DNA from: an uncultured Oscillospiraceae bacterium
GTDB lineage: Bacteria > Bacillota > Clostridia > Oscillospirales > Oscillospiraceae
Length of the DNA stretch: 64,000 bases
Reading direction: 5' to 3'
Assembly (NCBI GenBank): GCA_947631595.1
Contig: CANRLZ010000005.1
Location: 1-64,000, forward strand
Below, piece after piece: positions 8,531 through 32,285 of the stretch (its first letter is position 1; each line of letters opens with the position of its first letter). Below the pieces are notes generated by a model that saw only the letters and a program-made list of their open reading frames with translations, had not been told where the DNA came from and made no database searches. The position numbers and the translations under genes were made by a program.

Positions 8531-8683
8531 GCCCGCGCCTCCGTCCTCGACCCGCGGAGGGGTCGTGAGTATCCATGGACTTTTTACCATACTGGCGGCC
8601 AAAAGTCAAGGAAAATCCCGCCAATTCCCCATCTGGACGGGAGGATCCCACACTTTTTCCAGATGATACCGCTCCCGCCCGCC

Positions 8684-8712
8684 GCATATCCAACCCGCCC
8701 CTGTTCATACTA
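8684..8712 (+). promoter_or_regulatory. Predicted sigma-G (forespore) promoter: GCATA-N17-CATACTA
   Basis: Matches the B. subtilis sigma-G consensus gHATR-N17/18-CATWMTA, 42 bp before the spoVT start codon. Confidence 0.7.
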
Positions 8713-8753
8713 AGGTTTGTCAAATAGAAAACAAGGCAGGAGGAATTCCCTTG

Positions 8754-8945
8754 ATGAAAGCGACTGGCGTCGTGAGACGCATTGACGACCTGGGCCGGAT
8801 CGTCATCCCCAAAGAGATCCGCCGCACCATGCGCATCCGCGAGGGCGACCCGCTGCATACAACATTGGAGGAGTGGGAGAGGTTCTGCCTCGGGATGCTG
8901 CGTTTGTCAAAGAGGGCCGGGCTGAGGCCCCGCGACGGCGAATAG
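8754..8945 (+). pseudogene. spoVT: spoVT 5' fragment (34 codons) interrupted by the element; continues for 29 codons as the recombinase's own displaced C-terminal tail
   Basis: MKATGVVRRIDDLGRIVIPKEIRRTMRIREGDPL is the SpoVT AbrB-type N-terminus, then switches to the unrelated HTTLEEWERFCLGMLRLSKRAGLRPRDGE; SD aggagg upstream. Confidence 0.93.
8839..8855 (+). repeat. attL core direct repeat GCGAGGGCGACCCGCTG
   Basis: Exact 17-nt match to 30747-30763; flanking bases differ on both sides. Confidence 0.92.
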
Positions 8946-9027: not shown

Positions 9028-10773
9028 TCAGCTGTCGAACTCCAGGTACGCGCCCTTCATGGGGCTGGCGGCGTGCTCGCTGAACAGGCGCAGGGTACCG
9101 CTCTTGTACTTCACGGGCTTGGGCTTCCAGGCCTCCTTGCGCTGGGCCAGGATGGCGTCGATCTCCTCCGGGGTCTTGCGCTCCCCCTTGACCCCTACGA
9201 TGGCCAGCACCCGGTTGGGCACGTCGATCTCGATCAGGTCTCCCTCCTCCACCAGGGCGATGGGGCCGCCGGCCTGGGCCTCGGGGCTGCAATGGCCAAT
9301 GACCGGGCCGGTGGAGGCGCCGGAGAAGCGCCCGTCGGTGATGAGGGCAATGGCCCGACCCAGCTCCTTGTCTGAGGAGATGGCCTCAGAGGTGTAGAAC
9401 ATCTCGGGCATGCCGGAGCCCTTGGGACCCTCGTAGCGGATGAATACCGCGTCGCCCTTTTCCACCTTGTGGTGGAGCACCGCGTCGATACACGCCTCCT
9501 CGCTGTCAAAGGGGCGGGCCCGGAGGACGGCCTGGAACATCTCCTTGGGGCAGGCGGTGTGCTTGATGACGGCGCCCTGGGGAGCCAGATTGCCTTTCAA
9601 AACGGCCACGGAGCCGTCGGTGCCGATGGCCTTGTCAAAGGGCCGGATGATGTCCTCCCGGGTGATGTGGGTACCGTACCGGGCGTTCGCCTCATCCAAC
9701 CACTTCTGGCAGTGCGCGTAGAAGCCATTCTCCCGCAGCTCGTCCAGGTTCTCTCCCAGGGTCTTTCCAGTGACCGTCATGGCGTCCAAGTGGAGGACGC
9801 TCCTGATCTCCTCCATGATGGCGGGCACGCCCCCGGCATAGTAGAAGAACTCGGCGGGCCACCGCCCGGCGGGGCGGATGTCCAGCAGGTAGTGGGCCCC
9901 GCGGTGGAGCCGGTCGAAGGTGTCGCCGTCGATCTCCAGGCCGAACTCGTGGGCGATGGCAGGCAGGTGCAGGAGGGTGTTGGTGGAGCCGGAGATGGCC
10001 GCGTGGACCATGATGGCGTTCTCCAGGCTGTCCATGGTGACGATGTCGCTGGGCTTCAGGCCCTTCAGGGCCAGCTCCACCGACTGCTTACCGGCCCGGT
10101 AGGCGTAGTCGATGAGGTCGGGGCTGGTGGCGGGGAGCAGGGCGGAGCCGGGCAGGGACAGGCCCAGAGCCTCGGCCATGATCTGCATGGTGGAGGCGGT
10201 GCCGATGAAGGAGCAGGCCCCGCAGCTGGGGCAGGCGTTGCACTTGGCCCAGTTCAGCTTCGCCTCGTCGATCTCTCCCCGCTCGAACTTGGCGCTGTAC
10301 ATCCCCAACTGCTCCAGGGTGAGCATCTCCGGCCCGGCGGCCATGGTGCCGCCTGTTACCATAATGGAGGGGATGTTGACCCGGGCCATGCCCATGAGGT
10401 TTCCGGGCATCCCCTTGTCGCAGCTGGCCATGAATACGCCGCCGTCAAAGGGGGTGGCGTTGGCCTGGATCTCGATCATATTGGCGATCATCTCCCGGCT
10501 GGCCAGACTGTAATTGATCCCGTCGGTCCCCTGGCTCTCGCCGTCGCACATATCGGTGCAGAAGTACCGGGCGCCATGTCCGCCCGCCTCGGCAATACCC
10601 CGGCAGGCAGCCTCCACCAGCTTGTCCAGATGCCCCGATCCGGGGTGGCTGTCCCCAAAGGTACTCTCCACAAAGATCTGGGGCTTGGACAGATCCTCCG
10701 GCTTCCAGCCGGTGCCGATGCGCAGGGGATCCAGCTCGGGGGCCAGCTTACGCATTTCTTGACTGATCAACAT
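9028..10773 (-). CDS. IlvD/Edd family dehydratase (dihydroxy-acid or sugar-acid dehydratase)
   Basis: Family motifs CDMCDGESQG, SCDKGMPGNLMGMAR, CNACPSCGACSFIGTASTMQ, TDGRFSGAS. Context with GntP and FadR favours a sugar acid. Confidence 0.9.
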   Translation of the reverse strand: MLISQEMRKLAPELDPLRIGTGWKPEDLSKPQIFVESTFGDSHPGSGHLDKLVEAACRGIAEAGGHGARYFCTDMCDGESQGTDGINYSLASREMIANMIEIQANATPFDGGVFMASCDKGMPGNLMGMARVNIPSIMVTGGTMAAGPEMLTLEQLGMYSAKFERGEIDEAKLNWAKCNACPSCGACSFIGTASTMQIMAEALGLSLPGSALLPATSPDLIDYAYRAGKQSVELALKGLKPSDIVTMDSLENAIMVHAAISGSTNTLLHLPAIAHEFGLEIDGDTFDRLHRGAHYLLDIRPAGRWPAEFFYYAGGVPAIMEEIRSVLHLDAMTVTGKTLGENLDELRENGFYAHCQKWLDEANARYGTHITREDIIRPFDKAIGTDGSVAVLKGNLAPQGAVIKHTACPKEMFQAVLRARPFDSEEACIDAVLHHKVEKGDAVFIRYEGPKGSGMPEMFYTSEAISSDKELGRAIALITDGRFSGASTGPVIGHCSPEAQAGGPIALVEEGDLIEIDVPNRVLAIVGVKGERKTPEEIDAILAQRKEAWKPKPVKYKSGTLRLFSEHAASPMKGAYLEFDS

Positions 10774-11118: not shown

Positions 11119-12507
11119 ATGTTATTGGCAGTGTTCCTCATCTCCATCGCCGTGCTGCTGTTCTGCATCATCAAGCTGAAGCTCAACGCCTTTGTGGCCC
11201 TGATGGTCTGCGCCTACGGCACCGGCCTGCTGGCCCTGGCCACCTACGCCGGCGGCGCCGCCCCGGAGGGATTTGCCTCCATCGCCGACGTGGTGGCCAC
11301 CGTTACCAACAACTTCGGATCCACCCTGGGCTCCATCGGCATCGTCACCGGCCTGGGCGTTATGCTCGGTATGTTCATGTACGAGTCCGGCGGCATCGAC
11401 AGCATCGTGGATAAGGTGCTCAAGGCGGTGGGCCCCAAGCGTTCCCAGTATGCCGTGTCGGTGGCCGGATTTATCACCGGCATCCCCGTGTTTGGCGACG
11501 TGGTCTACATCATGTTTGCCCCCATGCTCCGGGTGCTGTCCAAAAAGACAAAATACTCCATGACCGCCTACGGCTGCGCCATCGCCGTGGCCACCACCTG
11601 TACCTTCGCCCTGGTGCTGCCCACCGCGCCTCCCCTGGCCGTGGCCGCCGCCATGGACATCAACGTGGGCATTTTCTTCTTCTACGCCCTGATCGCCGCC
11701 TTTGTGGGGATGTTCTTCGGCGGCATCGTCTGGGGCGGTTTCATCAACAAGCGGGATCAGAAGCTGGGCAAGACCTGGGACTTCTCCGACCTGGACGACC
11801 AGGCTGAGACCACCCAGGGCGACGGCCGCCCCAAGATGGGCGCCATGATGGCCATGTCCATCCTCCTGGTCCCCATCGTGCTCATCCTCATCGGCTCCTT
11901 CTCCGCTTTCTTCCTGCCCGCCGACAGCCAGCTGCTGCAGGTCCTCTCCTTCCTGGGAGATAAGAACGTGGCCATGACCATCGGCGTGCTCTACGGCGCG
12001 TTTATCTCCCGCAAGTACCTGCCCCGTTCCATCACCGACATTATGGCGGCCGGCGCCGATAAAGTGGGCCTGATCCTCCTCATCACCGGCGCGGGCGGCG
12101 CCTACGGCGGCGTGCTGAAGGCCTGCGGCATCGCCACCGTCATCACCGACGGGCTCCAGGGCTTCCATATGCCCATCCTGCTCATGTGCTTCGTCATCGC
12201 CCAGGTCCTGCGTATCGCCACCGGCTCCACCACCGTGGCCCTGACCACTACCGCCGCCATCGTCTCCACCGCCGCCGCCACCGCCGGGGTCTCCCCCATC
12301 CTCTGCGCCATCGCGGTATGCGCCGGCGGCATCGGCCTCTCCCTGCCCAACGACTCCGGCTTCTGGGCCATCTCCCGCTTCTTCCATCTCACCGAGGTGG
12401 ACACCCTCCGTGGGTGGTCCCTGGGTGGCTTCGTAGCCGGCGTATCCATCCTGATCTTCGCCTGTCTGCTCAGTCTGTGCCAGGGCTTCCTGCCCGGTCT
12501 GGTGTAA
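11119..12507 (+). CDS. GntP family gluconate/sugar-acid permease
   Basis: Multi-TM GntP-like protein (GGIDSIVDKVLKAVGPKRSQYAVSVAGFITGIPVFGDVVYIMFAP; GTGAGGAYGGVLK-like; STTVALTTTAAI). Confidence 0.9.
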   Translation: MLLAVFLISIAVLLFCIIKLKLNAFVALMVCAYGTGLLALATYAGGAAPEGFASIADVVATVTNNFGSTLGSIGIVTGLGVMLGMFMYESGGIDSIVDKVLKAVGPKRSQYAVSVAGFITGIPVFGDVVYIMFAPMLRVLSKKTKYSMTAYGCAIAVATTCTFALVLPTAPPLAVAAAMDINVGIFFFYALIAAFVGMFFGGIVWGGFINKRDQKLGKTWDFSDLDDQAETTQGDGRPKMGAMMAMSILLVPIVLILIGSFSAFFLPADSQLLQVLSFLGDKNVAMTIGVLYGAFISRKYLPRSITDIMAAGADKVGLILLITGAGGAYGGVLKACGIATVITDGLQGFHMPILLMCFVIAQVLRIATGSTTVALTTTAAIVSTAAATAGVSPILCAIAVCAGGIGLSLPNDSGFWAISRFFHLTEVDTLRGWSLGGFVAGVSILIFACLLSLCQGFLPGLV

Positions 12508-12663: not shown

Positions 12664-13392
12664 GTGGAGAACCGATATTTTGAGACCTTGAAGGCCAAAG
12701 ACGCCTCTCTGCCCGAGCAGGTGGCGGAGCAGATCTCCCAGCTCATTGTGGAGCGGCGGCTGGAGAGCGGCGCGAAGCTGCCCAACGAGTTTGAGCTGGC
12801 CGCCCAGCTCAACGTGGGGCGGGGCACCGTCCGGGAGGCGGTGAAGCTGCTGGTATCCCGCAACGTGTTGGTCATCCGCCGGGGGCTGGGCACCTATATC
12901 GCCAGCCGCCCCGGGCAGGTGGACGACCCCCTGGGCTTTGCCTACTACCCCGATCAGCTGCGGCTGAGCATGGATCTGCTGGAGGTCCGCGCCAATCTGG
13001 AACCCTGGGTGGCCGGAACGGCGGCCCAGCGGGCCACCCAGGAGAACATGGACGCCCTGCGGGAGATGTGTCTGCTGGTGGAGCGGGACATCCTGGAGGG
13101 GCGGGACCACCTGGCCCACGATGTGGAGTTCCACGTCCGCATCGCCCAGTGTACCCAAAACCTGGTGGTGCCGGAGCTCATTCCTATCATCACCTACGCC
13201 GTTGGCCTGTTTGGCAAGCTGACGGGAAACAGCCTGCGCTCGGAGACCATCATCGACCACCGGGCCATTGCCGACGCCATCTGCGCCCACGACCCCGACC
13301 GGGCCGAACAGGCCATGCGCCGCCACATGGAGCTCAACCGGGCGGAGCTGGAACGGGTAGCCCGGGAACAGCGCGGCGAAATCGGGCGGTAG
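12664..13392 (+). CDS. GntR family (FadR subfamily) transcriptional regulator
   Basis: Winged HTH (LPEQVAEQISQLIVERRLESGAKLPNEFELAAQLNVGRGTVREAVKLLVSRNVL) and helical FCD domain. Confidence 0.93.
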   Translation: MENRYFETLKAKDASLPEQVAEQISQLIVERRLESGAKLPNEFELAAQLNVGRGTVREAVKLLVSRNVLVIRRGLGTYIASRPGQVDDPLGFAYYPDQLRLSMDLLEVRANLEPWVAGTAAQRATQENMDALREMCLLVERDILEGRDHLAHDVEFHVRIAQCTQNLVVPELIPIITYAVGLFGKLTGNSLRSETIIDHRAIADAICAHDPDRAEQAMRRHMELNRAELERVAREQRGEIGR

Positions 13393-14404: not shown

Positions 14405-16456
14405 CTAAAGGTCAATTTTAGTAATTTCTTTATTATACACATAGGTATAAACAGAATTGCATATCCGTCGAGAAAAGTGTTCAATCCACCCATTGGGGTT
14501 CCGAAAATAATCAATGATTTGAAAAAGCGCAAGGATATCCAAAACAACAAATAATATACGCCACCCCAGATGCAATGGTCCTGTGTAATCGGTGAAAACC
14601 TTGAATACCCAAATACCAACAGTCACCAGTAGAATTAAGACAGAAGCAATCATGATGCCGCATTTAAACCGCTTTGCAACTTTTTCTGACTTGTCTTTCG
14701 CCCGATGTGCCGCTTCCCCTCTCTTGTTCGCACGCGCCTTTTCTGTATTCTCCATCCGTTTTACTATGGCCCTCAACTGCTGAATTTCTTGATCTTTTTG
14801 GTCTAATTCTCTTTGCTTTTTTCTCTCAAGTAATGAGGTGGCCTCCTCTATATGCTTCGATGCTTTCTCTTTAACATACTTATTTATGGCACGCTGAACG
14901 TTCTCAGGAGATACAGCGTTAACATCATTTTCGGTTACATCAAACAAATATTGGCGCATACATGATTGGCTACGAATTAATAGCGCCGCATCTTCAGTGA
15001 GATCCCCGCTTTCAATCAACCGATCTGTCAATTCTATTGCCCGATCCATGATCTCCTGCGTCAGTTGACAAGCTGCGGTAGCATTTGCTATCAGCACATC
15101 CATTGGAAGTGAACTCTTTGCATCATAGCTACTTAGCCAAAGCAAACTGACTACATCAATGTCAAGCATTGCGAAATCAATCTCTGAATGGAACACTTTA
15201 GGGGACAACGCTTTCATGCACTGCGTCAACCACGGGTCTTGAGTAACCAGTATGGCCTTGCAACGTTCAATTTTTGTTGGATGATTATTCTTTCTAAGCA
15301 TTCCAATCGCTGCTAACGATTTGGTATCATAATCAAATCTATCACCATTTTCACGGTGTCTGCCCGACTTACCTCTTGACTCTCTAAGCCAATTCGTTAT
15401 AGCCTTTTCGTCTTGGACATCGGGATAGTTTTCCACAGAATAACCAGGTGCAGGAACAGTCTCAATCATTCCTCGCGTCATTAGATTTGCGCTAACCGAT
15501 GATGAAATTGCTTCCAACATTTCCAGTGGATAATTCTTTGAGGCAAGACCCTCCAGTTGAAAGGCATTCTTTCTGCCTGCCCTCTTTGCAAAGGCAGAAA
15601 GCAGACTTTCAGCTTCTGCTACTGTGTGTTCAAAAACACAAACTTGGCCACCGTTCCTTCGTATTAAGTCAATTAACTCTCGCACTCCTTGTTGCCGTAC
15701 TTTTGAATCATAGCCCAAGTAATTAATTACAAGGGAACAGTCCAGATAAAATGTAACATCCTTCAATTTTGAAGAAATGCTCGCTTTATTTTCTCGTTCA
15801 AGGTAATAAAGCGCCTTATAAGCAAAGAAACCTCTCACTATTTCTTTTAAATATTCGAACTCTAATGCGTGCCATTCTGATAAATCAAGAATGCACTGCG
15901 CTACCCAAAAATTTTCTTTTCCATTTTTTGCTTTAGTAATCATCTGTAAATCGTTAACGTCTTTTGCCATAGTAAAACCGCAAGATTCGAAGAAATTCGT
16001 CAACATATCTTTCAGCGTATTGGAGTCGAAAGATTTATAAGGCTTGTGCTCAACAAAATAGTTCTTCATTTTATCAAGCACATAGTCAATTTTCCGGCGC
16101 ATCTCCAATTGATCTTTCAAAAAGTCCTTATTATCAAAGGCTGTAGCCACATAGTACTTCCCCTTTTCTTTTCGGATATAAGGATGCGCAGATGCCTTAA
16201 TCTTTGTGTTCCTCTGTAAAATTCCTTTTATAAAGCCGAGTGGCATATCGTCAAAACCGTATTCCGATTTAATTGTAGCCTGTATTTGCTCAATATCAAT
16301 TTCCTGGCCGATGGTCGTAGGTAGGGATGCCAAAACAAATGGAGACACCAAATCAATATAGTCACGCCTATCCCGCTCCCAAAGGGCAGATAGCATGCCA
16401 ACTGTACATAGAGCATTTGGATTCTTCATATCTAGTATCACCCCAAAGCTTATCAT
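14405..16456 (-). CDS. PIN-like domain protein with C-terminal coiled coil and two TM segments, uncharacterized
   Basis: PIN-like acidic pattern: VTFYLDCSLVINYL, VCVFEHTVAEAESLL, RFDYDTKSLAAIGML, AILVTQDPWLTQCM; helical K/E region then GIMIASVLILLVTVGIWVF and GWRILFVVLDILALFQII. MISFG start has SD GGAGG. Confidence 0.65.
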   Translation of the reverse strand: MISFGVILDMKNPNALCTVGMLSALWERDRRDYIDLVSPFVLASLPTTIGQEIDIEQIQATIKSEYGFDDMPLGFIKGILQRNTKIKASAHPYIRKEKGKYYVATAFDNKDFLKDQLEMRRKIDYVLDKMKNYFVEHKPYKSFDSNTLKDMLTNFFESCGFTMAKDVNDLQMITKAKNGKENFWVAQCILDLSEWHALEFEYLKEIVRGFFAYKALYYLERENKASISSKLKDVTFYLDCSLVINYLGYDSKVRQQGVRELIDLIRRNGGQVCVFEHTVAEAESLLSAFAKRAGRKNAFQLEGLASKNYPLEMLEAISSSVSANLMTRGMIETVPAPGYSVENYPDVQDEKAITNWLRESRGKSGRHRENGDRFDYDTKSLAAIGMLRKNNHPTKIERCKAILVTQDPWLTQCMKALSPKVFHSEIDFAMLDIDVVSLLWLSSYDAKSSLPMDVLIANATAACQLTQEIMDRAIELTDRLIESGDLTEDAALLIRSQSCMRQYLFDVTENDVNAVSPENVQRAINKYVKEKASKHIEEATSLLERKKQRELDQKDQEIQQLRAIVKRMENTEKARANKRGEAAHRAKDKSEKVAKRFKCGIMIASVLILLVTVGIWVFKVFTDYTGPLHLGWRILFVVLDILALFQIIDYFRNPNGWIEHFSRRICNSVYTYVYNKEITKIDL

Positions 16457-16618
16457 ATCAGACCTCCCAGAATTTGTCCACACATTTTGTCGTTTTTTGG
16501 GCTAAATTACCGTATTACTTCCTGATGTTATTATAACTAAATACTGGCCCATAAGTTTGTCAAACAAACATATGCTTACGCAAAAAGCGCACCTCAAATT
16601 GAGGTGCGTCAGCCTGTC

Positions 16619-18303: not shown

Positions 18304-20211
18304 GTGGAACCACAAGCAAAAAGAGACGCTGTGCTTATCGGCCCCGGCATCAACACCATCAGCCCCCGCGTGCTGAAAATCCTTTTGCGGGACAAGGCCA
18401 CAGGCAAAAACATTGTCTGGGCCACGGATAACTATGCCCAACTGGGGGACGAATTTGCCGCCCCCTGCGAGATACTCCCCGAACTCATTACCGGGACCAA
18501 CGCCCACATCATCCAGCCCCGTGTCCGCAAAGGTCAAGCCGAACAGTCCAGCCGCACCCGCAAACGGGGCGAAGTGTTCACCCCTCTCGGGGTCTGCCAA
18601 AAAATGTGTGACCACTTCGACACGGTGTGGGCAAAGGCCGACTGGAAGCGCTATGTGGATGTCCGCTGTCTGGAGATCACCTGCGGCGAGGCGCCGTTCC
18701 TGGTTTCCCGCTATGACGCCGCCACCGGCGAGACCGTGCCTCTGAGCGGACGGATCGGTCTGCTGGACCGGAAGCTCCGGGCGGTGGGCGAGAACGCCGA
18801 AAACGAGGCGGAATGGCTCCGGTGGGCCATCCGGGCGGTGGAAAGCACCTATGGCTACGAGTACCAGGGCGACTCGCTGCTCATTGCCCGGCTCAACGTG
18901 CTGGCGACCTACGGCGACTACCTGCGAAAGCGGTGGAAGCGAGAGCCCACCGCCAAAGAGCAGGCAAAGGTGGCAAACATCATTGCCTGGAACCTCTGGC
19001 AGATGGACGGGCTGAAAAATACCACCCCCATTGGCTCTCTGGAATCCAGAAACTACATACAGCTGACCCTTTTCGGCGACGAAGACCCGGATCCCGGCGG
19101 CCCTATCGCCCGCCGCTGCGTCGCGCGCAACTGGCGGGCCAAACGATCTCAGCCCATCGCGCAAGATCATTCGGAGGAGGTCAGACCGATGAAATTTGAC
19201 TATGTGATCGGAAATCCGCCGTATCAGGATGAAACTTTGGGAGAGAATAAAGGATTTGCGCCGCCTATCTACCATCTTTTTCTTGAGGAAGCATACAAAA
19301 TTTCGGACAGAGTGGAACTTATTCATCCTGCTCGGTTTCTTTTCAATGCTGGTAGCACTCCAAAGGCGTGGAATCAAAAGATGTTGTCAGATCCGCATTT
19401 CAAAGTACTTTATCATGAGCAGGATAGTAGCCATCTGTTCCCCAATACTGATATTAAAGGCGGGGTTGTTATCACTTACCATGATAATGTCAGAGATTTC
19501 GGAGCTATTGTGTCATACACAATGTTTGAAGAACTAAATTCTATACTTCACAAGGTTATAAACAAGAAAGAAAACAGTCTTATGGATATTGTCTATATCC
19601 AGAATAGGTTTAACTTGGAAATCCTGCTTAGCGAGCATCCAGATTTCAAGCAATCTATAGGAAGTAATGGGCGAGATTCTCGTTTAGAAAAAAATATCTT
19701 TGCCAAAATTCCGATATTTACCTCTGATAATAATTCAGACAGCATTAAAGTTGTAGGAGTGTTTGAAAATAAACGTGTATTTCGATATATTGAACGAAAA
19801 TATTTAGATTTTGTTCATGAGAACCTCAAAAAATATAAAGTTGTACTTCCAGTTGCTAATGGTAGTGGAGAGTTTGGACAAGTTTTAAGTTCACCGTTCA
19901 TTGAAGCCCCTTTTGAAGCATATACACGTTCATTCATAGGTATAGGCGCATTTGATACACAAGATGAAGCAGACGCATTGTTAAAGTATCTAAAATCAAA
20001 GTTTTGCCGCTCTATGTTGTCCGTATTAAAAGTTACTCAAATGAACAACAAAGATGTTTGGAAGTACGTCCCCCTCCAGGATTTCACCCCCGCCTCCGAC
20101 ATCGACTGGTCAAAATCCATCCCTGAGATCGACCAACAGCTCTACGCCAAGTACGGCCTGACCCAGGAGGAGATCGACTTCATCGAGTCCCATGTGAAGG
20201 AGATGACGTGA
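18304..20211 (+). CDS. N6-adenine DNA methyltransferase, Eco57I-like, restriction-modification system
   Basis: GEVFTPLGVCQKMCDHFD, motif-I-like EITCGEAPFLVSRYD, motif IV YVIGNPPYQDE, AT-rich target recognition region. Confidence 0.85.
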   Translation: MEPQAKRDAVLIGPGINTISPRVLKILLRDKATGKNIVWATDNYAQLGDEFAAPCEILPELITGTNAHIIQPRVRKGQAEQSSRTRKRGEVFTPLGVCQKMCDHFDTVWAKADWKRYVDVRCLEITCGEAPFLVSRYDAATGETVPLSGRIGLLDRKLRAVGENAENEAEWLRWAIRAVESTYGYEYQGDSLLIARLNVLATYGDYLRKRWKREPTAKEQAKVANIIAWNLWQMDGLKNTTPIGSLESRNYIQLTLFGDEDPDPGGPIARRCVARNWRAKRSQPIAQDHSEEVRPMKFDYVIGNPPYQDETLGENKGFAPPIYHLFLEEAYKISDRVELIHPARFLFNAGSTPKAWNQKMLSDPHFKVLYHEQDSSHLFPNTDIKGGVVITYHDNVRDFGAIVSYTMFEELNSILHKVINKKENSLMDIVYIQNRFNLEILLSEHPDFKQSIGSNGRDSRLEKNIFAKIPIFTSDNNSDSIKVVGVFENKRVFRYIERKYLDFVHENLKKYKVVLPVANGSGEFGQVLSSPFIEAPFEAYTRSFIGIGAFDTQDEADALLKYLKSKFCRSMLSVLKVTQMNNKDVWKYVPLQDFTPASDIDWSKSIPEIDQQLYAKYGLTQEEIDFIESHVKEMT

Positions 20212-23200
20212 TGGCGGCGCCGAAAATCCAGACCACCCAGCGGGTGGTGCCCATGATCTACGCCTACACAACGCCGGACATCCCCAAACACCTCGGCTGG
20301 ACCAAGATCGGTTACACCGAGCAGGATGTAAAGACCCGCATCCGCCAGCAGACCCACACCGCCGATATCGACTTCCACGAGGAGTGGCGGGGCAATGCCA
20401 CCTTTGAAGACGGCAGCGGGGAGAGCTTTACCGACCACGATTTCCACGCCTATCTCGCCAAGCTGGACGTGGCGCGCAAGGCGGGCACCGAGTGGTTTTA
20501 CATCTCCGGCCCCGCCTCCCACGGCCATTTCATCACCTTCCGCGCTACCAGAGGCATTCTGGAGGCCCTGGACGCCGTCGTGCCCTACAAGCTCCGCCGG
20601 GAGCAGTCCGAGGCGGTGGAGCGGACGGCCCGCTACGCCCAGTCCCACCCGCGGGGCGAGTTCCTCTGGAACGCCAAGCCCCGGTTCGGCAAGACCCTGT
20701 CCGTCTATGATCTCTGCAAGACCATTCAGGCTCAGAATGTCCTCATCGTCACCAACCGCCCCGCCATCGCCAACTCCTGGTATTCCGACTACGCGCGGTT
20801 CCTGGGCGTCCAGTCGGGCTACCGGTTTGTCAGCGAGGTGGACGCCCTCAAGGGGAAGAAGTTTGTCCTCAGCCGGGAGGAGTATGTCAGCCTGGTGCGG
20901 AAGATGGGCGAAGGTGAGGCCCCCCGCTGCATCGAGTTCGTCAGCCTGCAGGATCTGAAGGGCTCTATCTACTTCGGCGGCGGCTTTGACAAGCTGAGGG
21001 AGATCCGGGACATGGTCTGGGATGTGCTGGTCATCGACGAGGCCCACGAGGGCGTGGACACCTACAAGACCGATGTGGCCTTCAACCAGATCAAGCGGGA
21101 ATTCACCCTGCACCTGTCCGGCACCCCCTTTAAGGCCCTGGCCAATGACAAATTCGAGCAGGAGGCCATCTTCAACTGGACCTATGCCGACGAGCAGGCG
21201 GCTAAGCGGAATTGGGACGCCTCCGGCGAGGAGGAGAACCCCTACGCCAACCTCCCCCGGCTCAATCTGTTCACCTATCAGATGTCTGAGATCGTCAAGG
21301 ACGAGCTGGAACAGGGCATTGAGATCCAGGGGGAGACGGAGGAGTACGCCTTCGACCTGAATGAATTTTTCTCCACCAACGCCGCCGGGAGATTTGTCCA
21401 CGAGAGCTCGGTGGATAAGTTTTTGGATGCCCTGACCACCCAGTCCAAGTTTCCCTTCTCCACCCCGGAGCTGCGGACTGAATTGAAACACACCTTCTGG
21501 CTCCTGAACCGGGTGGACAGCGCCAAGGCTCTGGCCAAAAAGCTGGAGGCCCACCCGGTGTTCGGGACATACAAGGTCGTTCTGGCCGCCGGGGACGGGC
21601 GGCTGGACGACGCGGAGGAGATCCAGAAGTCCTTTGATAAGGTGAAGGCGGCCATCGGGCAATATGATAAGACCATCACCCTCTCCGTGGGACAGCTCAC
21701 CACCGGCGTGACCATCCCGGAGTGGACGGCGGTGCTGATGCTCAGCGGCATCAGAAGTCCCGCCCTCTATATGCAGGCGGCCTTCCGGGCCCAGAACCCC
21801 TGCCTCTTTTCCGCGGGCGGGCAGTTTTTCCGCAAGGAAAACGCCTATGTCTTCGATTTTGACCCCGCCAGGACGCTGACCATCTTTGAGGAGTTCGCCA
21901 ACGACTTGAGCCGCGACACCGCCGATGGCCGGGGCGACGCCGACATCCGCAAGCGGCACATCCGGGAGCTTCTGAACTTCTTCCCCGTCATCGGCGAGGA
22001 TGAAAAGGGCGAGATGGTGGAGCTGGACGCGGAAAAGGTGCTGTCCATCCCCCGGAGGATCCGCTCCCAAGAGGTAGTCCGCCGTGGCTTTATGAGCGAT
22101 TTCCTGTTCCAGAATGTGAGCAATGTGTTCCACGCGCCCCAGGCTGTGCTGGATATCATCAGCAGCCTCACGCCGGTCCAGGAGCCGAAGCGGGACTTGG
22201 GGATGGACCCCGGCGCCGCCGTGGAACTGTCCATCAACGAAAACGGCGAGGTGGAGTTGGCGGAAGACTATGTCATCGGAAAGTCCGCTGAGGTGTTTGG
22301 CGAGAAGATCTTTGGCGTGAGCCGGGACTTTGAGGACACGGTGGCCGACCTCTTGAAGCGGTCCGCCGAAAAGCCCAGGGATGAGACCCTGGAAAATCTG
22401 AAAAAGCAGTTCCAGCGGGAGACCGCGGCCCCCATTTTGCAGACCACCCAGGAGAAGTATACCGAGGGACTGAAGGCCTCTGATATCAAGCGGCTGGAGA
22501 GGAAGCTCCACGAGGACGCCGACCGAATGGTAGGCGCCGCCTATGGGGAGCTGTCTATCCAGCGGAAAATGCTGGAAAAAGAGCGGCAGGAGGCTCTGGC
22601 CGCCGCGCCCGCCCACCGTCAGGAGCAGGTAAACCGGGAGTACGACCAGCGGCAGCGGGAGGCCGTGGAGAGCTTCGCCCAGCAGCTCCATGAATTGGGG
22701 CAAGACTATCAGCAGTCCGCGGCCACCGAGGTGGTCAGGACCGTGGAGACCCAAAAGAAGGAGCGGGAGAAAAAGGGCATTGAGGACGCCGTGAAGGACC
22801 ACCTGCGGGGCTTCTCCCGCACCATCCCCTCCTTCCTCATGGCCTATGGACACGAAGGCGTAACGCTGGAAAACTTCGACGCCATCATCCCCGGCGACGT
22901 GTTCCTGGAGGTCACCAGCATCACCCTGGAGCAGTTTCGTTTCCTCCGGGACGGCGGCCCTTATACGGATGAAAACGGGGAGGAAAAGCATTTCGAGGGC
23001 AAGCTCTTTGACCCCGTGGTTTTCAACGATTCGGTGAAGGAATTTTTGCGCCTGAGAGCCAAGCTGGTCGATTACTTTGACGAGGGGCAGACAGAGGACA
23101 TCTTCGACTACATCCCACCCCAGAGGACAAACCAGATCTTTACCCCCAAGCGGGTGGTGCAGCAGATGGTGGATCTGCTGGAGAAGGAATATCCCGGCTG

Positions 23201-23525
23201 CTTTGACGACCCGGACAGGACCTTTGCCGACCTCTACATGAAGTCCGGGCTCTACATCGCGGAGATCGTCAAGCGGCTCTACCGCAGCGAGGAGATGAAG
23301 CGCCGCTGCCCGGACGGAGGAGAGCGGCTGCGGCATATCTTCGCCAGACAGGTCTACGGTCTGGCCCCTACGGAGATCATCTACCGCATCGCCACCAATT
23401 TTATCCTGGGCTTTCGTGATGAGATCCCCATTGACGTCCACAACTTCCGCAAGCTGGACGCTTTGGAATACGCCAAGGCGGGAACCTTGGAGCAGAAGCT
23501 GGACGAAGTATTTGGGGGCGCTTAA
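20211..23525 (+). CDS. GIY-YIG-like (T5orf172/MUG113-type) nuclease fused to DEAD/DEAH helicase (restriction subunit-like), with methylase-like C-terminal segment
   Basis: N-terminal YAYTTPDIPKHLGWTKIGYTEQDVKTRIRQQ; Walker A-like WNAKPRFGKTLSVYDL; DEAH in VLVIDEAHEG; HLSGTPFKAL; C-terminal NQIFTPKRVVQQMVDLLE. TGATG overlap with the MTase gene. Confidence 0.85.
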   Translation: MAAPKIQTTQRVVPMIYAYTTPDIPKHLGWTKIGYTEQDVKTRIRQQTHTADIDFHEEWRGNATFEDGSGESFTDHDFHAYLAKLDVARKAGTEWFYISGPASHGHFITFRATRGILEALDAVVPYKLRREQSEAVERTARYAQSHPRGEFLWNAKPRFGKTLSVYDLCKTIQAQNVLIVTNRPAIANSWYSDYARFLGVQSGYRFVSEVDALKGKKFVLSREEYVSLVRKMGEGEAPRCIEFVSLQDLKGSIYFGGGFDKLREIRDMVWDVLVIDEAHEGVDTYKTDVAFNQIKREFTLHLSGTPFKALANDKFEQEAIFNWTYADEQAAKRNWDASGEEENPYANLPRLNLFTYQMSEIVKDELEQGIEIQGETEEYAFDLNEFFSTNAAGRFVHESSVDKFLDALTTQSKFPFSTPELRTELKHTFWLLNRVDSAKALAKKLEAHPVFGTYKVVLAAGDGRLDDAEEIQKSFDKVKAAIGQYDKTITLSVGQLTTGVTIPEWTAVLMLSGIRSPALYMQAAFRAQNPCLFSAGGQFFRKENAYVFDFDPARTLTIFEEFANDLSRDTADGRGDADIRKRHIRELLNFFPVIGEDEKGEMVELDAEKVLSIPRRIRSQEVVRRGFMSDFLFQNVSNVFHAPQAVLDIISSLTPVQEPKRDLGMDPGAAVELSINENGEVELAEDYVIGKSAEVFGEKIFGVSRDFEDTVADLLKRSAEKPRDETLENLKKQFQRETAAPILQTTQEKYTEGLKASDIKRLERKLHEDADRMVGAAYGELSIQRKMLEKERQEALAAAPAHRQEQVNREYDQRQREAVESFAQQLHELGQDYQQSAATEVVRTVETQKKEREKKGIEDAVKDHLRGFSRTIPSFLMAYGHEGVTLENFDAIIPGDVFLEVTSITLEQFRFLRDGGPYTDENGEEKHFEGKLFDPVVFNDSVKEFLRLRAKLVDYFDEGQTEDIFDYIPPQRTNQIFTPKRVVQQMVDLLEKEYPGCFDDPDRTFADLYMKSGLYIAEIVKRLYRSEEMKRRCPDGGERLRHIFARQVYGLAPTEIIYRIATNFILGFRDEIPIDVHNFRKLDALEYAKAGTLEQKLDEVFGGA

Positions 23526-24814: not shown

Positions 24815-25888
24815 ATGACCCAAGGAAAACATCTCAACACCATCGACGGCGCGACGCTTATGTCCCAGCCGCTCCGCCCGCCCAACTTCATTGTGGACCC
24901 TCTGCTCAGTCAGGGGCTGCACATCCTGGCCGGTTCCCCCAAGGTGGGCAAGTCCTGGCTGGCCCTGTGGCTGGCGGTAACGGTGGCCAAGGGCGAGCCA
25001 ATCTGGGGAATGACCGTGAAACCCGGCTCTGCCCTCTATCTCTGTCTGGAGGACTCCCAGCTCCGCATCCAGAACCGGCTGTTCCAAATCACCGAGGACG
25101 CTCCCTCCACGGTCCATTTCTGCACCGAGGCCGCTCCGCTGGGCCGTGGACTGGAAGAACAGCTGGAAAATTTTCTGGCCGAGCACCCGGACACGGTGCT
25201 GGTCATCATTGACACGCTCCAGATGGTTCGCAGTACACGCTACGACAACACCTACGCCAACGACTATCGGGACCTCTCCGTATTAAAGCGACTGGCGGAT
25301 CGTCACAGCCTTGCCATCCTGCTCATCCACCACCTGCGGAAGGAACCCGCTGAGGATGTGTTCAACCGCATTTCCGGGACCACCGCCATCAGCGGCGCTG
25401 TGGACACCAGCTTCACGCTGGTGGAGGAGCGCCGGGGCAGCCGACGGGCCAAGCTCTTCTGCGTGGGCCGGGACATCGAGTACCGGGAAATGGGGCTGGA
25501 ACGGAACGCTGATAACGTCTGGGCGGTGGTCTCAGACAGCAGGGACGCGCCGGAGCTGCTGGAGGACAAGGTCGTTTCTCTTCTCTCTGGACTCATGGAG
25601 GACAGAGGAAAGCTTATCGGCACTCCCACTGAACTGGCCGAAGCTATTGACCCTGATGGCGCAGAAGGCATTTTGCCTAAAACGCTCTCCCGCCGGATCG
25701 TCCAAAGCGTTGACGCGCTAAGCAAAAGGGGTATCACGGTCGCTCTCCGCAGGAGCAACGGCAGGCGCCTCATCGAGCTCCACCGTGCCGACAGTGCCGA
25801 CAAATCCGACCCCGGAACAGTTGACCCTGTCGGCACTGAGGAGGAGCGTTCAGGGCAGGTTTGCCCACCCTTGGTGGGGCAAGCATAG
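24815..25888 (+). CDS. RepA/AAA_25-like ATPase, plasmid-type replication helicase
   Basis: HILAGSPKVGKSWLALWLA (Walker A), VLVIIDTLQMVR (Walker B), AILLIHHLRKE. Confidence 0.85.
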   Translation: MTQGKHLNTIDGATLMSQPLRPPNFIVDPLLSQGLHILAGSPKVGKSWLALWLAVTVAKGEPIWGMTVKPGSALYLCLEDSQLRIQNRLFQITEDAPSTVHFCTEAAPLGRGLEEQLENFLAEHPDTVLVIIDTLQMVRSTRYDNTYANDYRDLSVLKRLADRHSLAILLIHHLRKEPAEDVFNRISGTTAISGAVDTSFTLVEERRGSRRAKLFCVGRDIEYREMGLERNADNVWAVVSDSRDAPELLEDKVVSLLSGLMEDRGKLIGTPTELAEAIDPDGAEGILPKTLSRRIVQSVDALSKRGITVALRRSNGRRLIELHRADSADKSDPGTVDPVGTEEERSGQVCPPLVGQA

Positions 25889-25969: not shown

Positions 25970-26290
25970 ATGCCAAGAGAAAAGCAAAAGACGGATATTA
26001 TTACCATGAGGATACAGCCAGAGTTCAAAGCGATCATTCAGCAGAAAGCACGGGAGGCCAACATGACCCTGACCAACTACCTCTGCATCTGCGGCCTGGG
26101 TCAGCAGATCGTCCGGGTGGGCGGTCTGGACGAGGTGCTGCATGAGCTGAAAGCCCAGGGCCGCAATCTCAACCAGCTCACCACGCTGGCCCACATGGGC
26201 AAGCTCAAGGTCCTCCGTGGGGATGACCTGGTGGAGGGCTACGCCAAGCTGGCCGCCCAGGTGAGCGAGTTGGTGAGGATGGTGAAGTGA
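25970..26290 (+). CDS. MobC-like relaxosome accessory protein
   Basis: Ribbon-helix-helix-like N-terminus and GRNLNQLTTLAHMGKL motif; directly precedes relaxase. Confidence 0.85.
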   Translation: MPREKQKTDIITMRIQPEFKAIIQQKAREANMTLTNYLCICGLGQQIVRVGGLDEVLHELKAQGRNLNQLTTLAHMGKLKVLRGDDLVEGYAKLAAQVSELVRMVK

Positions 26291-27559
26291 ATGGCAACCT
26301 TTACGGCAATCAAGAACAAGGCCCAAAGTGGCGGCGCTATGCGGGGCGTATTGAACTACATCAAGCGGAAGGACAAGACGCTGTGGGGCGACCGTCAGCT
26401 GGTCAGCGGCTACAACTGCGTGGCCCAGTCCGCCTACGAGGAGATGATGACCACCAAGCGGCGGTACGGCAAAACGGACGGCAGGATGTTCTACCAGTTC
26501 GTCCAGTCCTTCCACCCGGAGGAGGATGTGACCCCGGAGGAAATTCACGCCATAGGGCTGGAGCTGGCCCAGCGGTTGTTCCCAGACTTCGAGGTGGTAG
26601 TCGCCACCCATGTGGACGCCGAACATCTTCACAGTCACCTGCTGGTGAATAGCGTGAGTTGGAAAGACGGCCATAAGCTCCATCAGAACGCCGCCGGCCT
26701 CCAGCGGCAACGGCAGATCAGCGACGAGGTCTGCGCCGCCCACGGTCTGACGGTGCTGGAGCCGCCTAGGAAACACATCCAGGAAAAGCAGATGCGCCCC
26801 GGCGAGTACCGCTCCGCCGTCCGTGGCGAGAGCTGGAAGTTCCGGCTCATGAACACCATCGACCTGTGCATGAAACGAGCCAAGACCAAGGCCGAGTTCA
26901 TTCGGGAGATGGAGCGACGTGGGTATCAGGTGCGGTGGGAGAAAAACCGAAAGGCTATCACCTACACCACACCCAAGGGCAAAAAGTGCCGGGATGACCG
27001 GCTGCACGATAAAAAGTATTTGAAGGAAGTGATGGAGCGTGAGTTCCGAATTCGAGAGCAGATTATCCAACGAGGAATTGAAGCGGAGAAACTTGCCCGC
27101 CGAGCCGCCGTCCCCGGCAACCTGTCCCACGCCGGAACAGTGGACGGAGCTGCTGACCCTGCTGGAAATCCAGAACGACACGATGAAATCCCTGCTGTCC
27201 ACGGTGCAGACAATGGCCGCACAGTCGGAGAACCAGACAAAGGAACTGCTGAATATCCGCCAGCAGTTAGAACAGGCTGGGAGCAAAAAAGAGCGGCGGC
27301 GTTTGCGGCTGCCACGGCCCAGGCTCCCGGCGCTGCCCACGGTCACGTTCAAGGGAGCGGCCCTCACGCTGATGGCCTTGGCCGTGTTGGTGATTCTCTT
27401 ATACGCCTTGGCTACGCTCTGGAACGTAGTCAGGCCCCTGCTCCAACCGCTCCCGTGACCGTCCACAGCGACCGCAAGGCCCTGGCCAAAGAGCGGACCC
27501 TGAAGCTCGCTCGGGGCGGCAGGCCGGACGACCACAAGGAGCAGAGGCTGTCTATGTGA
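26291..27559 (+). CDS. MobP/VirD2-like relaxase
   Basis: KRYGKTDGRMFYQFVQSFHPEEDVTPEEIHAIGLELAQRLFPDFEVVVATHVDAEHLHSHLLVNSV contains the relaxase HxD.xH.H signature. Confidence 0.92.
   Translation: MATFTAIKNKAQSGGAMRGVLNYIKRKDKTLWGDRQLVSGYNCVAQSAYEEMMTTKRRYGKTDGRMFYQFVQSFHPEEDVTPEEIHAIGLELAQRLFPDFEVVVATHVDAEHLHSHLLVNSVSWKDGHKLHQNAAGLQRQRQISDEVCAAHGLTVLEPPRKHIQEKQMRPGEYRSAVRGESWKFRLMNTIDLCMKRAKTKAEFIREMERRGYQVRWEKNRKAITYTTPKGKKCRDDRLHDKKYLKEVMEREFRIREQIIQRGIEAEKLARRAAVPGNLSHAGTVDGAADPAGNPERHDEIPAVHGADNGRTVGEPDKGTAEYPPAVRTGWEQKRAAAFAAATAQAPGAAHGHVQGSGPHADGLGRVGDSLIRLGYALERSQAPAPTAPVTVHSDRKALAKERTLKLARGGRPDDHKEQRLSM
27039..27458 (+). CDS. Small TM protein overlapping relaxase 3' region in another frame
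   Basis: PEQWTELLTLLEIQNDTMKSLLSTVQTMAAQSENQTKELLNIRQQLEQAG then GAALTLMALAVLVILLYALATLW; more protein-like than the overlapping relaxase C-terminus. Confidence 0.6.
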   Translation: MSSEFESRLSNEELKRRNLPAEPPSPATCPTPEQWTELLTLLEIQNDTMKSLLSTVQTMAAQSENQTKELLNIRQQLEQAGSKKERRRLRLPRPRLPALPTVTFKGAALTLMALAVLVILLYALATLWNVVRPLLQPLP

Positions 27560-27978: not shown

Positions 27979-29013
27979 ATGGATGGCAAGAATGACGAGC
28001 TTATGAAGTCCGGCGAGGTGCTGTTTTACAGCGACGGCAGCGGCAAGGAATTTGTCAGCGTGGTGTTTCAAGACGAGAATTTCTGGCTGACCCAGAGCGG
28101 TATGGCGGAGCTGTTTGGCTGCTCTACCGACAACATTTCCCTTCACCTCAAAAACATTTTTGACGAAAGGGAACTGGAAGCGGAGGCAACTACCGAGAAA
28201 TTCTCGGTAGTTCGCAAAGAGGGGAATAGAGAGGTGCGGCGCACCATTGACCACTACAACCTGGACGCCATCATCGCCGTTGGCTACCGGGTGAACTCCA
28301 AGAAGGCCACCCGCTTCCGTCAGTGGGCCACCAAGACGCTGAAAGAGTACATCCAAAAGGGCTTTGTCCTCAACGACGAGCTGATGAAAAACGGCCGCCC
28401 CTTTGGCCGGGACTACTTCGACGAGCTCCTGGAGCGCATTCGGGAGATCCGGGCCAGCGAGCGCCGGGCCTACCAGAAGATCGCCGACATCTTCGAACAG
28501 TGCAGCTACGACTACGACAAGCGCAGCGACACCACCAAGGCCTTCTACGCCTTTGTGCAGAATAAGCTCCACTACGCCGTCACCGGCAAGACGGCGGCGG
28601 AGTTGATCCGCGAGCGGGCCACTCTGGACAGCCCCACCATGGGCCTCACCACCTGGAAGGCCGCCCCGGACGGGAAAATTCTGAAAAGCGACGCCCTTAT
28701 CGCCAAGAACTACCTGAACGAGAAGGAAATCTCCCGCCTCAACCGCCTGGTCACCATGTTCATCGACTACGCCGAGCTGATGGCGGAGGATCAGCAGCTG
28801 ATGTCCATGCGGGACTGGCTGGAGGAGGCCGACCGCTTTCTCACCAACAACCGCCGGAAGGTGCTGGCCGGAAAGGGAAAGGTCTCCCGGGAGGAGGCCG
28901 AGCGACAGGTCTCGGCCATTTATGAGGAGTTCCGCAAGAAGCAGGACGCCGACTACATCTCTGAGTTTGACCGCCAGACGGCGAAATATCTGAAGGGGGA
29001 AGCCGATGCTTGA
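27979..29013 (+). CDS. RhuM family protein
   Basis: FWLTQSGMAELFGCSTDNISLHLKNIFDERELEAEATTEKFSVVRKEGNREVRRTIDHYNLDAIIAVGYRVNSKKATRFRQWAT. Confidence 0.93.
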   Translation: MDGKNDELMKSGEVLFYSDGSGKEFVSVVFQDENFWLTQSGMAELFGCSTDNISLHLKNIFDERELEAEATTEKFSVVRKEGNREVRRTIDHYNLDAIIAVGYRVNSKKATRFRQWATKTLKEYIQKGFVLNDELMKNGRPFGRDYFDELLERIREIRASERRAYQKIADIFEQCSYDYDKRSDTTKAFYAFVQNKLHYAVTGKTAAELIRERATLDSPTMGLTTWKAAPDGKILKSDALIAKNYLNEKEISRLNRLVTMFIDYAELMAEDQQLMSMRDWLEEADRFLTNNRRKVLAGKGKVSREEAERQVSAIYEEFRKKQDADYISEFDRQTAKYLKGEADA

Positions 29014-31201
29014 AACATTCGACATTGCCGGGTACTGCCGTATCTCGGTGGACGAGGAGCTGGACCGGGACAACACCTCCATCGAGAACCAGAAGGCTAT
29101 CCTTTCGGACTTTGTGAAGCGCAAATTCCCCGGCTCTACTCTGACCTTCTACGAGGATCGGGACAAGTCGGGCTACACCTTCGACCAGCGACCCGGCTAC
29201 CAGGCCATGCGCCGGGAGCTGATGGGCCACAAGAAGGACATCCTTATCGTCAAGGACTTCTCCCGCTTCTCCCGGCGCAACTCCCGGGGGCTGGTAGAGT
29301 TGGAAGATCTGCGGGACGCGGGGGTGCGGATCATCTCCGTCGGCGACAACATCGACTTCCCCAACGACGACGACTGGCTGAAGATCCAGTTTCAATTCCT
29401 CATCAACGAAATGCCCGTCACCGACGCCAGCAAGAAGGTGAAGTCGGTCATCCAGCGCCGCCAGCAGGACGGCCAGTGGCTCTGCGCCGCCCCCTACGGC
29501 TACATCCTCAACAAGCGCAGGGAATTTGAGATCGTCCCCACCGAGGCCGAGATCGTTCGGGAGATTTTCCGGCTCTACATCGACGGCTGGGGCTACAAGA
29601 AGATCGCCAACCACCTCACCGACCAGGGCATCCCCACCCCTCGGATGGCCGAGCAGCAGCGCCGGGAGGCCGCCGGAGAGGATTGCAAGCGCGCCGCCAG
29701 GCCGACCTGGGCCATTGTGACGGTGCAGGGGATTTTGGACAACGATTTCTATATCGGCACCCTCCGCCAAGGCAAGTACACCCGCAGGAAGATCAACGGC
29801 AAGGACATGAAGCGGGACGAGCTGGAGCATATCGTCATCGAGCGCCACCACCAGCCCATCATTGACTACCGCACCTTCGCCACCGTCCGGGCGCTGCGCC
29901 AGACCCGCTCCACCAGCCACTACCGGGGGCAGAAGAAGTACGACAACGTCTACTCCGGCTTCCTCTTCTGCGGCGACTGCGGCTCCCCCATGTTCGCCAT
30001 GAGCCGCCGGGACCTCAAGGACGCCTACCGCTGCGGGGAATATCACCGCCAGGGGCTCAAGGGCTGCACCAGCCACCACATCCGGGTGGACAAGCTGGAC
30101 GAGCTCTTGAAAATATATATCAAAAAAGTCAAGGACAACTCCGCCGCCATGCTGGAACGGCTCAACGCGGATCTGGCCCGGGAGCGGGAGGACGTGGACG
30201 AAGCCCAGCGGGCCGCCGACCACCTGGAGGAAGTGCTGGCGGACTTGCAGGAGGAACTGAAAGCCACCAAGCGCCAGCGGATCCGGGACATCATGAAGCA
30301 CCCGGAGCAGGAGGCCACCCTGGAGGAGACCTATGACGAGCTGGAGAGCGACCTGGTCCGCCGCGTTGCAGGCGTGCAAAACCAGATCGCCATGACCCAG
30401 GACAGGCGCAACACCATCATCCAGGTGAACCGGGCGGCGAAAACGGCGATGGAGGTCTTTGACGACATTCTGAGCAAGCCCAAGCTGGATCGCAACGACC
30501 TCCAACTTATTATTGAAAAAATCAAGGTCTACGAGGACCATATTGAAGTCCAGCTCAAGGCCGACGTGGACAGCATCCTCCGCTGCGGCGAGCTGCCGGA
30601 GGAACTGGCCGGGGAACAGCCCCAGGCGGTGGCCGCCATGGGCCTTGTCACCCTGGACAGGCCGGAAAAGGCCATGCCCTACGAAATTCAGATCGTCCAG
30701 GAGAGCGATAAGCACAAGGGCAAGGTGTTCACTGTCAAAGTCATCAGCGAGGGCGACCCGCTGGAGATCTTCACGGACAAGGACGGCGGGGTGGTGTTTA
30801 AAAAGTACAGCCTCATGGGCGGGCTGAGCGACTTCGCCGGGCAGATGTGCGAGACGCTCTCCAAGCTCTCCGGCCTCACCGCCGTCATCACCGACCGGGA
30901 CAACATCCTGGCCGTGTCCGGCGCGCCCCGGCGGGAGCTGGCCGAGCGGCCGGTGAGCGAGGAGCTGGAACAGCTCATGGAGAGCCGCCAGCTCTACGTC
31001 CGCCAGGCGGGCGCCGCCCCGGTGCAGATCTGCCGGGACAACGACCGCTTCCACGCCACCGTCTCCGCCCCCATCCTCTCCGGCGGCGACGTGCTGGGCG
31101 CGGTGCTTTTCGTGGCCGAAGGGGACGAGACCGTGGGCGAGACGGAGACGAAAATGATCCAGACCGCCGCCGGCTTCCTCAGCCGGCACATGGAGGAGTG
31201 A
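29006..31201 (+). CDS. Large serine recombinase (codons 1-586) fused in frame at attR to SpoVT residues 35-179
   Basis: GYCRISVDEELDRDNTSIENQK, KDFSRFSRRNSRG, recombinase and zinc-ribbon (CGDCGSPMFAMSRRD) domains; from 30764 EIFTDKDGGVVFKKYSLMGGLSDFAGQMCETLS...ETKMIQTAAGFLSRHMEE is SpoVT. Confidence 0.95.
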   Translation: MLETFDIAGYCRISVDEELDRDNTSIENQKAILSDFVKRKFPGSTLTFYEDRDKSGYTFDQRPGYQAMRRELMGHKKDILIVKDFSRFSRRNSRGLVELEDLRDAGVRIISVGDNIDFPNDDDWLKIQFQFLINEMPVTDASKKVKSVIQRRQQDGQWLCAAPYGYILNKRREFEIVPTEAEIVREIFRLYIDGWGYKKIANHLTDQGIPTPRMAEQQRREAAGEDCKRAARPTWAIVTVQGILDNDFYIGTLRQGKYTRRKINGKDMKRDELEHIVIERHHQPIIDYRTFATVRALRQTRSTSHYRGQKKYDNVYSGFLFCGDCGSPMFAMSRRDLKDAYRCGEYHRQGLKGCTSHHIRVDKLDELLKIYIKKVKDNSAAMLERLNADLAREREDVDEAQRAADHLEEVLADLQEELKATKRQRIRDIMKHPEQEATLEETYDELESDLVRRVAGVQNQIAMTQDRRNTIIQVNRAAKTAMEVFDDILSKPKLDRNDLQLIIEKIKVYEDHIEVQLKADVDSILRCGELPEELAGEQPQAVAAMGLVTLDRPEKAMPYEIQIVQESDKHKGKVFTVKVISEGDPLEIFTDKDGGVVFKKYSLMGGLSDFAGQMCETLSKLSGLTAVITDRDNILAVSGAPRRELAERPVSEELEQLMESRQLYVRQAGAAPVQICRDNDRFHATVSAPILSGGDVLGAVLFVAEGDETVGETETKMIQTAAGFLSRHMEE
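30747..30763 (+). repeat. attR core direct repeat GCGAGGGCGACCCGCTG
   Basis: Identical to 8839-8855. Confidence 0.92.
30764..31201 (+). pseudogene. spoVT: spoVT 3' fragment (second half of AbrB domain plus GAF-like domain)
   Basis: Joins in frame to 8754-8855 to give a 179-aa SpoVT. Confidence 0.93.
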
Positions 31202-31217
31202 GCCTCCCCATCCCGGA

Positions 31218-31257
31218 CGGGACGGACGCCAAAACCCGGCGTCCGTCCCGTTTTTTT
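31218..31257 (+). terminator. spoVT terminator
   Basis: cgggacggacgcc-aaaaccc-ggcgtccgtcccg-ttttttt. Confidence 0.9.
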
Positions 31258-31413
31258 GACACCACAGGTCGAGTCCTGTCGGACGATTATTGCTAAAATT
31301 TTCCATTTTCGTCTTGCGGGAACTGTAAAAATATGGTATATTTTTCCCATCGATGTGGTGGGCCCCACTAGGTAAAATTCAGGGCGGCGCAGCCGCCGGA
31401 AACGAGGAAAGTC

Positions 31414-32172: not shown

Positions 32173-32220
32173 CCCGGCGGCAAAGATGTCTCGCCCCGGC
32201 GCGAAAACATTCTGATAGGC

Positions 32221-32271
32221 AAAAACACGCCCCGCTCCCCGGTCACCGGGATCGCGCGGGGCGTGTTTTTT
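32221..32271. terminator. Bidirectional terminator between spo0A and XRE gene
   Basis: aaaaacacgccccgc ... gcggggcgtgttttt. Confidence 0.85.
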
Positions 32272-32285
32272 GCGCCCGCGACGGG

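Follow-up and report, generated by a model that had tools for sequence, protein, structure and literature searches.

In the 64,000-nucleotide stretch of DNA analysed here (the window), spoVT is cut after codon 33 (REGDP) by a mobilizable element of about 21.9 kb. The features of the locus are as follows.

8684 to 8688, forward: -35 element GCATA of a sigma-G-like promoter, its 17-bp spacing kept in relatives
8706 to 8712, forward: -10 element CATACTA of the same sigma-G-like promoter, kept in relatives
8754 to 8851, forward: N-terminal half of spoVT (codons 1-33, MKATG...REGDP), which stops within the AbrB-like DNA-binding hairpin
8841 to 8855, forward: attL, direct repeat GAGGGCGACCCGCTG, with the crossover within GACCC at 8847-8851
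8847 to 30759, forward: the mobilizable element in its integrated form, about 21.9 kb from core to core
8852 to 8945, forward: displaced C-terminal tail of the native recombinase (HTTLEEWERFCLGMLRLSKRAGLRPRDGE, then a stop), now joined as a fusion to the SpoVT N-half; conserved as protein in 36 elements
9028 to 10773, reverse: IlvD/EDD-family dehydratase, cargo; 586 bp of the dehydratase also occur in the G005 element
11119 to 12507: GntP-type permease, cargo, after the dehydratase
12664 to 13392: GntR-family regulator, cargo, after the permease; with the two preceding genes, a sugar-acid cargo
18304 to 23525, forward: Eco57I-like methylase and type III Res-like helicase, cargo (restriction system)
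24815 to 25888, forward: RepA-like AAA_25 ATPase
25970 to 26290, forward: MobC-like mobilization protein, similar to an ORF at the same position in the G164 element
26291 to 27559, forward: MobA/VirD2-type relaxase
27979 to 29013, forward: RhuM-family protein, overlapping the recombinase start
29006 to 30759, forward: large serine recombinase (LSR) with Resolvase, Recombinase and Zn-ribbon domains and a coiled coil
30749 to 30763, forward: attR, second copy of GAGGGCGACCCGCTG, with the crossover within GACCC at 30755-30759
30760 to 31201, forward: spoVT C-half (SpoVT_C domain), forming the C-terminus of the recombinase ORF 29006-31201
31414 to 32172, forward: spo0A, the host gene 3' of spoVT (TIGR02875 above cut-off)

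SpoVT was identified by matches of its C-half to PF15714 (E 3.8e-38) and PDB 2w1t, and by alignment of its AbrB-like N-half. The crossover was placed within GACCC using genomes whose repeats differ by point changes. In a genome of the same genus (G002) the site is empty: the counterparts of window positions 8655-8855 and 30743-32278 are contiguous, spoVT is intact and the spo0A region follows. No intact second copy of spoVT was found in the host or in the other split genomes. The proposal, made in an earlier sequence-only reading, that spoVT is split by an integrated element is supported; the RepA-like ATPase which that reading had attributed to the element is also present, alongside the relaxase.

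The element combines an integrase and a relaxase with site-specific att sites carrying core repeats and with horizontal spread, the properties of an integrative mobilizable element. No phage genes, structural ones included, were found among the window-element proteins searched, and the recombinase occurred in only two viral contigs. The spoVT element is a mobilizable element and not a phage. A scan of the window element and of the region preceding the recombinase found no sigma-F- or sigma-G-like promoter, and none of the element's proteins was recognized as a directionality factor. A 691-aa ORF in the element (window 14405-16483) had no Pfam or NCBIfam match.

Upstream of the split gene, GCATA and CATACTA are separated by a 17-bp spacer and end 41 bp 5' of the spoVT start codon (ATG, 8754), and the ribosome site AGGAGG (8738-8743) lies between promoter and start. 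The sigma-G consensus consists of a -35 GNATR, 17-18 bp and a -10 close to CATNNTA, and 8684-8712 shows this arrangement in front of a forespore gene. When both strands of the 64-kb window were searched, exact GCATA-N17-CATACTA gave a single match, and the slightly wider pattern GNATR-N16-18-VATAMTA also matched only at this spot. Among relatives, the same box is found no more than 110 bp 5' of spoVT in 30/40 with a split and 19/24 with an intact gene, its spacer nearly always 17 bp, and in 0/2000 dinucleotide shuffles; a relaxed form precedes 37/40 split spoVT genes, against 0.3% of shuffles. The sigma-G site that had been predicted from the letters alone was thus exactly positioned, and it proved to be conserved in split and intact relatives and absent from shuffles. 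Because the box is conserved across relatives, 8684-8712 is probably a functional, forespore-type promoter of spoVT, recognized by sigma-G and possibly also by sigma-F. The host genome (a MAG, 79% complete) carries sigG. Both SigF and SigG direct spoVT transcription in C. difficile (PMC7438776).

This recombinase was detected in 62/401 sampled Oscillospiraceae genomes (about 15%), and spoVT was split in five of the six same-genus genomes examined. Carriers include named isolates and two single-contig genomes (G113 and G164); among the cultured ones with the fusion are Flintibacter muris DSM 110149, Flavonifractor sp. An306 and An100, and Butyricicoccus pullicaecorum DSM 23266. Of 58 spoVT-split genomes, 56 keep sigG or its C-part, six of these with the C-part only. 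LSRs are non-monophyletic in 9/13 genera with several carriers, whereas the host gene half is mostly monophyletic, and recombinases that are 94-97% identical sit in hosts with SpoVT halves only 50-82% identical. Because the LSR and host trees disagree, the element moves horizontally and repeatedly into one site in spoVT. For the same reason many of the insertions may be young, and the intactness of the halves is no proof that the gene is used. Element bodies are mosaic; the G232/G314 pair, considered as proof of vertical inheritance, was rejected on this ground.

At attR the LSR and the SpoVT C-half are read as one continuous ORF, an in-frame fusion. Such LSR::SpoVT-C fusions were found in at least 51 Oscillospiraceae genomes and in 78/80 loci from named genomes, the other two loci being cut by contig ends. 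Behind the SpoVT N-half, 36 genomes share a conserved tail peptide (consensus SQTTL..W..FCFGMLDLAKR.GW), whose pN/pS beyond the att arm is 0.45 in frame versus 0.88 and 1.21 in the other frames. The displaced C-terminus of the recombinase amounts to 25-30 residues, and the recombinase end and this tail would make one frame in the circle. Attachment sites (attP) of serine integrases are often inverted repeats around the core. Such a repeat is made by the arms from opposite ends of the element (13.8/19 matches versus 4.3 for shifted arms, n=34), which is what a common origin from one attP would predict. Because the tail is conserved in the recombinase frame and the arms are inverted around the core, the native attP lies inside the LSR gene, so that integration exchanges C-termini between LSR and SpoVT. 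Modelling of the fusion gave a folded SpoVT_C domain (pLDDT 82-92) preceded by linkers of low confidence, and an unreliable domain arrangement (pTM 0.31). In G250 the spoVT element has its recombinase at the opposite end and in the opposite orientation, with no fusion to the C-half. G034 carries the recombinase outside an intact spoVT and with a different C-terminus, either a secondary site or a deletion remnant.

Joining the flanks in silico gave an open spoVT of 175-181 aa in 38/38 genomes, with no stops. N-half dN/dS was 0.039 in split versus 0.028 in intact genes; C-half dN/dS was 0.42 versus 0.33, constraint being slightly weaker in split genomes. For a few sister pairs in which recombinase divergence is close to that of the host gene, C-half dN/dS was about 0.04-0.13, bearing in mind that elements can be mosaic. 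A split sporulation gene whose flanks rejoin open, and a site-specific recombinase beside the att site, are the marks of an intervening element, and both are found here. The data are sequences, mostly from uncultured MAGs; the split of spoVT, its promoter, the att sites with the native attP, the in-frame fusion of the recombinase, the rejoinable frame and the mobility of the element are read directly from them.

Published intervening elements interrupt sigK, spsM, spoVFB, spoVR, gerE and yabG, and their vertical transmission has been explained by the terminal death of the mother cell (PMC5025042). No published intervening element in spoVT or sigG was found in a literature search that covered few subscription journals. 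The published cases found share a target gene of the terminal mother cell (a common trait, no formal criterion), a feature that spoVT, with its conserved forespore-type promoter, lacks. A close anatomical parallel is skin in sigK of B. subtilis and C. difficile (skinCd; PMC5025042), likewise a serine-recombinase element that splits a sporulation gene, with precise rejoining and the recombinase beside one att site. However, sigK acts in the terminal mother cell and spoVT in the forespore, and skin is prophage-like, whereas the spoVT element is mobilizable and has its attP inside the recombinase gene, which yields the recombinase::SpoVT fusion. Anatomically the spoVT element works like one of skin type, except that the gene it interrupts belongs to the forespore. 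The gin element in gerE of B. cereus (PMC5595907) shares the non-phage character, the serine recombinases and the splitting of a small sporulation regulator gene, but gerE is a mother-cell gene and gin excision has been demonstrated, with the factors GirC and GirX known, while excision from spoVT is only proposed. Another serine-recombinase element in a clostridial sporulation gene is yin in yabG of C. botulinum (PMC10747680); coexisting forms have been seen for yin and are proposed for spoVT, but yin is prophage-like, comes from one strain and interrupts a gene under SigK. The comK prophage of Listeria (active lysogeny; PMC5025042) offers a precedent for reversible excision in a cell with progeny, as is only proposed for spoVT; it is a phage in a competence gene, whereas the spoVT element is without phage genes. 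Integrative mobilizable elements of TndX/TnpX type have similar recombinase, relaxase, MobC-like and RepA-like genes and mosaic cargo, but the spoVT element differs in its strict spoVT attachment site and in the position of attP within the recombinase coding region.

Since spores descend from the forespore, excision in the forespore is heritable. This argument of the sequence-only reading is sound, and it is strengthened by sigG, a second split forespore gene. About 40/347 sigG-bearing family genomes have a partial sigG, nearly always the C-part only. The N-part was located separately in most of 33 re-examined genomes and in 5/6 of the spoVT carriers with the C-part only. Where the break could be read, it falls at or directly beside the same VPMI codons and is adjoined by other serine recombinases, only about 25% identical to the spoVT one. 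No convincing sigma-F/G-type promoters were found in sigG elements. The gene is split in nearly all members of two genera (g4 and g23), and nine species of g23 share one sigG element. The composite g23 sigG has a dN/dS of about 0.03 over dS 0.2-1.6, and recombinase dS tracks sigG dS (r=0.77). The g23 element is thus inherited vertically, and composite sigG is under strong selection. This combination of splitting and constraint suggests either regular rejoining with return of the element, or excision outside the forespore that would leave an integrated germ line. Named by eye, the cargo of the g23 sigG element (G027, G266, G154) includes iron alcohol dehydrogenase-like, ferredoxin, tungsten aldehyde oxidoreductase-like, MoaD-like and ThiF-like genes and resembles a tungsten oxidoreductase operon.

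The mother-cell gene spoIVA served as a control: of 137 genomes, most had a full-length copy and a few a partial or split one; because of this, splits are not a general assembly artefact here, and mother-cell genes are hit too. In three genomes (G124, G037, G179) spoIVA is apparently split near residue 400, the two parts on G124 contig C2 (19347-19628 and 50310-51515) lying 31 kb apart; in G201 it is apparently split at another site. The sigK profile matches sigE too, so sigK splits could not be counted. Because a second forespore gene, sigG, is also split, the paradox is general: a lineage that rejoins its gene in the forespore must reinsert the element or excise it elsewhere.

Reversible excision is the most likely solution of this paradox, judging from the sequence data. 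In this reading spoVT is the single attB of an integrative mobilizable element family, and the serine recombinase crosses over in GACCC at codon 33-34. Integration splits spoVT, replaces the recombinase C-terminus with the SpoVT C-half and places the displaced tail behind the SpoVT N-half. We propose that excision in sporulating cells rejoins spoVT behind its promoter and yields a circle that again encodes the native recombinase. The circle would reintegrate during germination or outgrowth, a step we propose because serine integrases by default recombine attP with attB. By such reversible excision, as in active lysogeny, the element would persist in the germ-line cell and would not die with the mother cell. 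We put the probability that excision in sporulating cells rejoins spoVT, with reintegration of the circle at germination or outgrowth and persistence in the germ line, at roughly 50%; from these data we infer excision in sporulation, its cell type and trigger, and reintegration. A more specific version is doubtful: here the element would leave spoVT (elsewhere sigG) in the forespore and return after germination, and for spoVT the direction would be set by the reciprocal C-terminal swap. The integrated locus would then make a latent or excision-biased recombinase::SpoVT-C, and the circle a native, integration-competent recombinase. Neither an intact recombinase-tail junction (circle/attP) nor a coexisting attB was found in the assemblies of LSR-carrying genomes. 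A phage-collection contig ending near the core was considered as a circle, and no circle was found; a G342 contig break near the core gave no support for a fork.

The strongest competing explanation, which we regard as somewhat unlikely, is plain selfish insertion, with conserved spoVT codons serving as an att site and the gene disrupted. Excision would be rare and linked to mobilization instead of sporulation, hosts would sporulate poorly or without SpoVT, and insertions would be lost or replaced before decay. The tree discord in 9/13 genera, near-identical recombinases in diverged hosts, mosaic element bodies, presence in only about 15% of sampled family genomes and the lack of a forespore promoter in the element all fit this explanation, as does a B. 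subtilis spoVT mutant that still sporulates (PMC5061766). However, all 38 rejoined genes are open, split genes retain the promoter as often as intact ones do, and sister pairs with co-diverged recombinases retain a low C-half dN/dS (about 0.04-0.13). Furthermore, B. cereus needs SpoVT to complete sporulation (PMC5061766), and sigG, split alike, is strongly constrained across a whole genus.

If only already excised cells sporulated, the paradox would also be answered. Excision would then be spontaneous or growth-phase dependent and precede asymmetric division, the integrated form being kept by non-sporulating cells, reintegration or transfer. We consider such population heterogeneity improbable. 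It has a precedent in yin, with integrated and excised subpopulations at all stages (PMC10747680), and would suit an element with mobilization and RepA-like genes. A G339 contig whose start falls precisely on the crossover in spoVT hints weakly at a mixture of the two forms, integrated and excised, but this single contig break is anecdotal.

It is very improbable that the chimeric proteins are themselves the functional products, the GAF-type SpoVT_C on the recombinase acting as a sensor or direction switch and rejoining being secondary. Almost all uncut copies have the fusion, and the model predicts that SpoVT_C folds as one unit (pLDDT 82-92) after a flexible linker; a factor fused to the C-terminus of a serine integrase can reverse its direction (PMC5737554), and the PDB holds a YokA-YotN fusion (9dxd). 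On the other hand, the fusion is an automatic outcome of a reading frame shared at the core; equal conservation is seen in the N-half and its promoter, which lie outside the recombinase; and the modelled domain arrangement is unreliable (pTM 0.31). An assembly or binning artefact, suggested by the origin of the window as a contig of a 105-contig MAG, is effectively refuted by two single-contig genomes and several named isolates that share this architecture and by the empty site in the sister genome G002.

Reversible excision remains our preferred reading. Elements in the forespore genes spoVT and sigG break the mother-cell rule across a whole gut family, and the question of their inheritance is now testable in cultured isolates. 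The exchange of the recombinase C-terminus with the target at every integration is an unusual and testable design for a direction switch.
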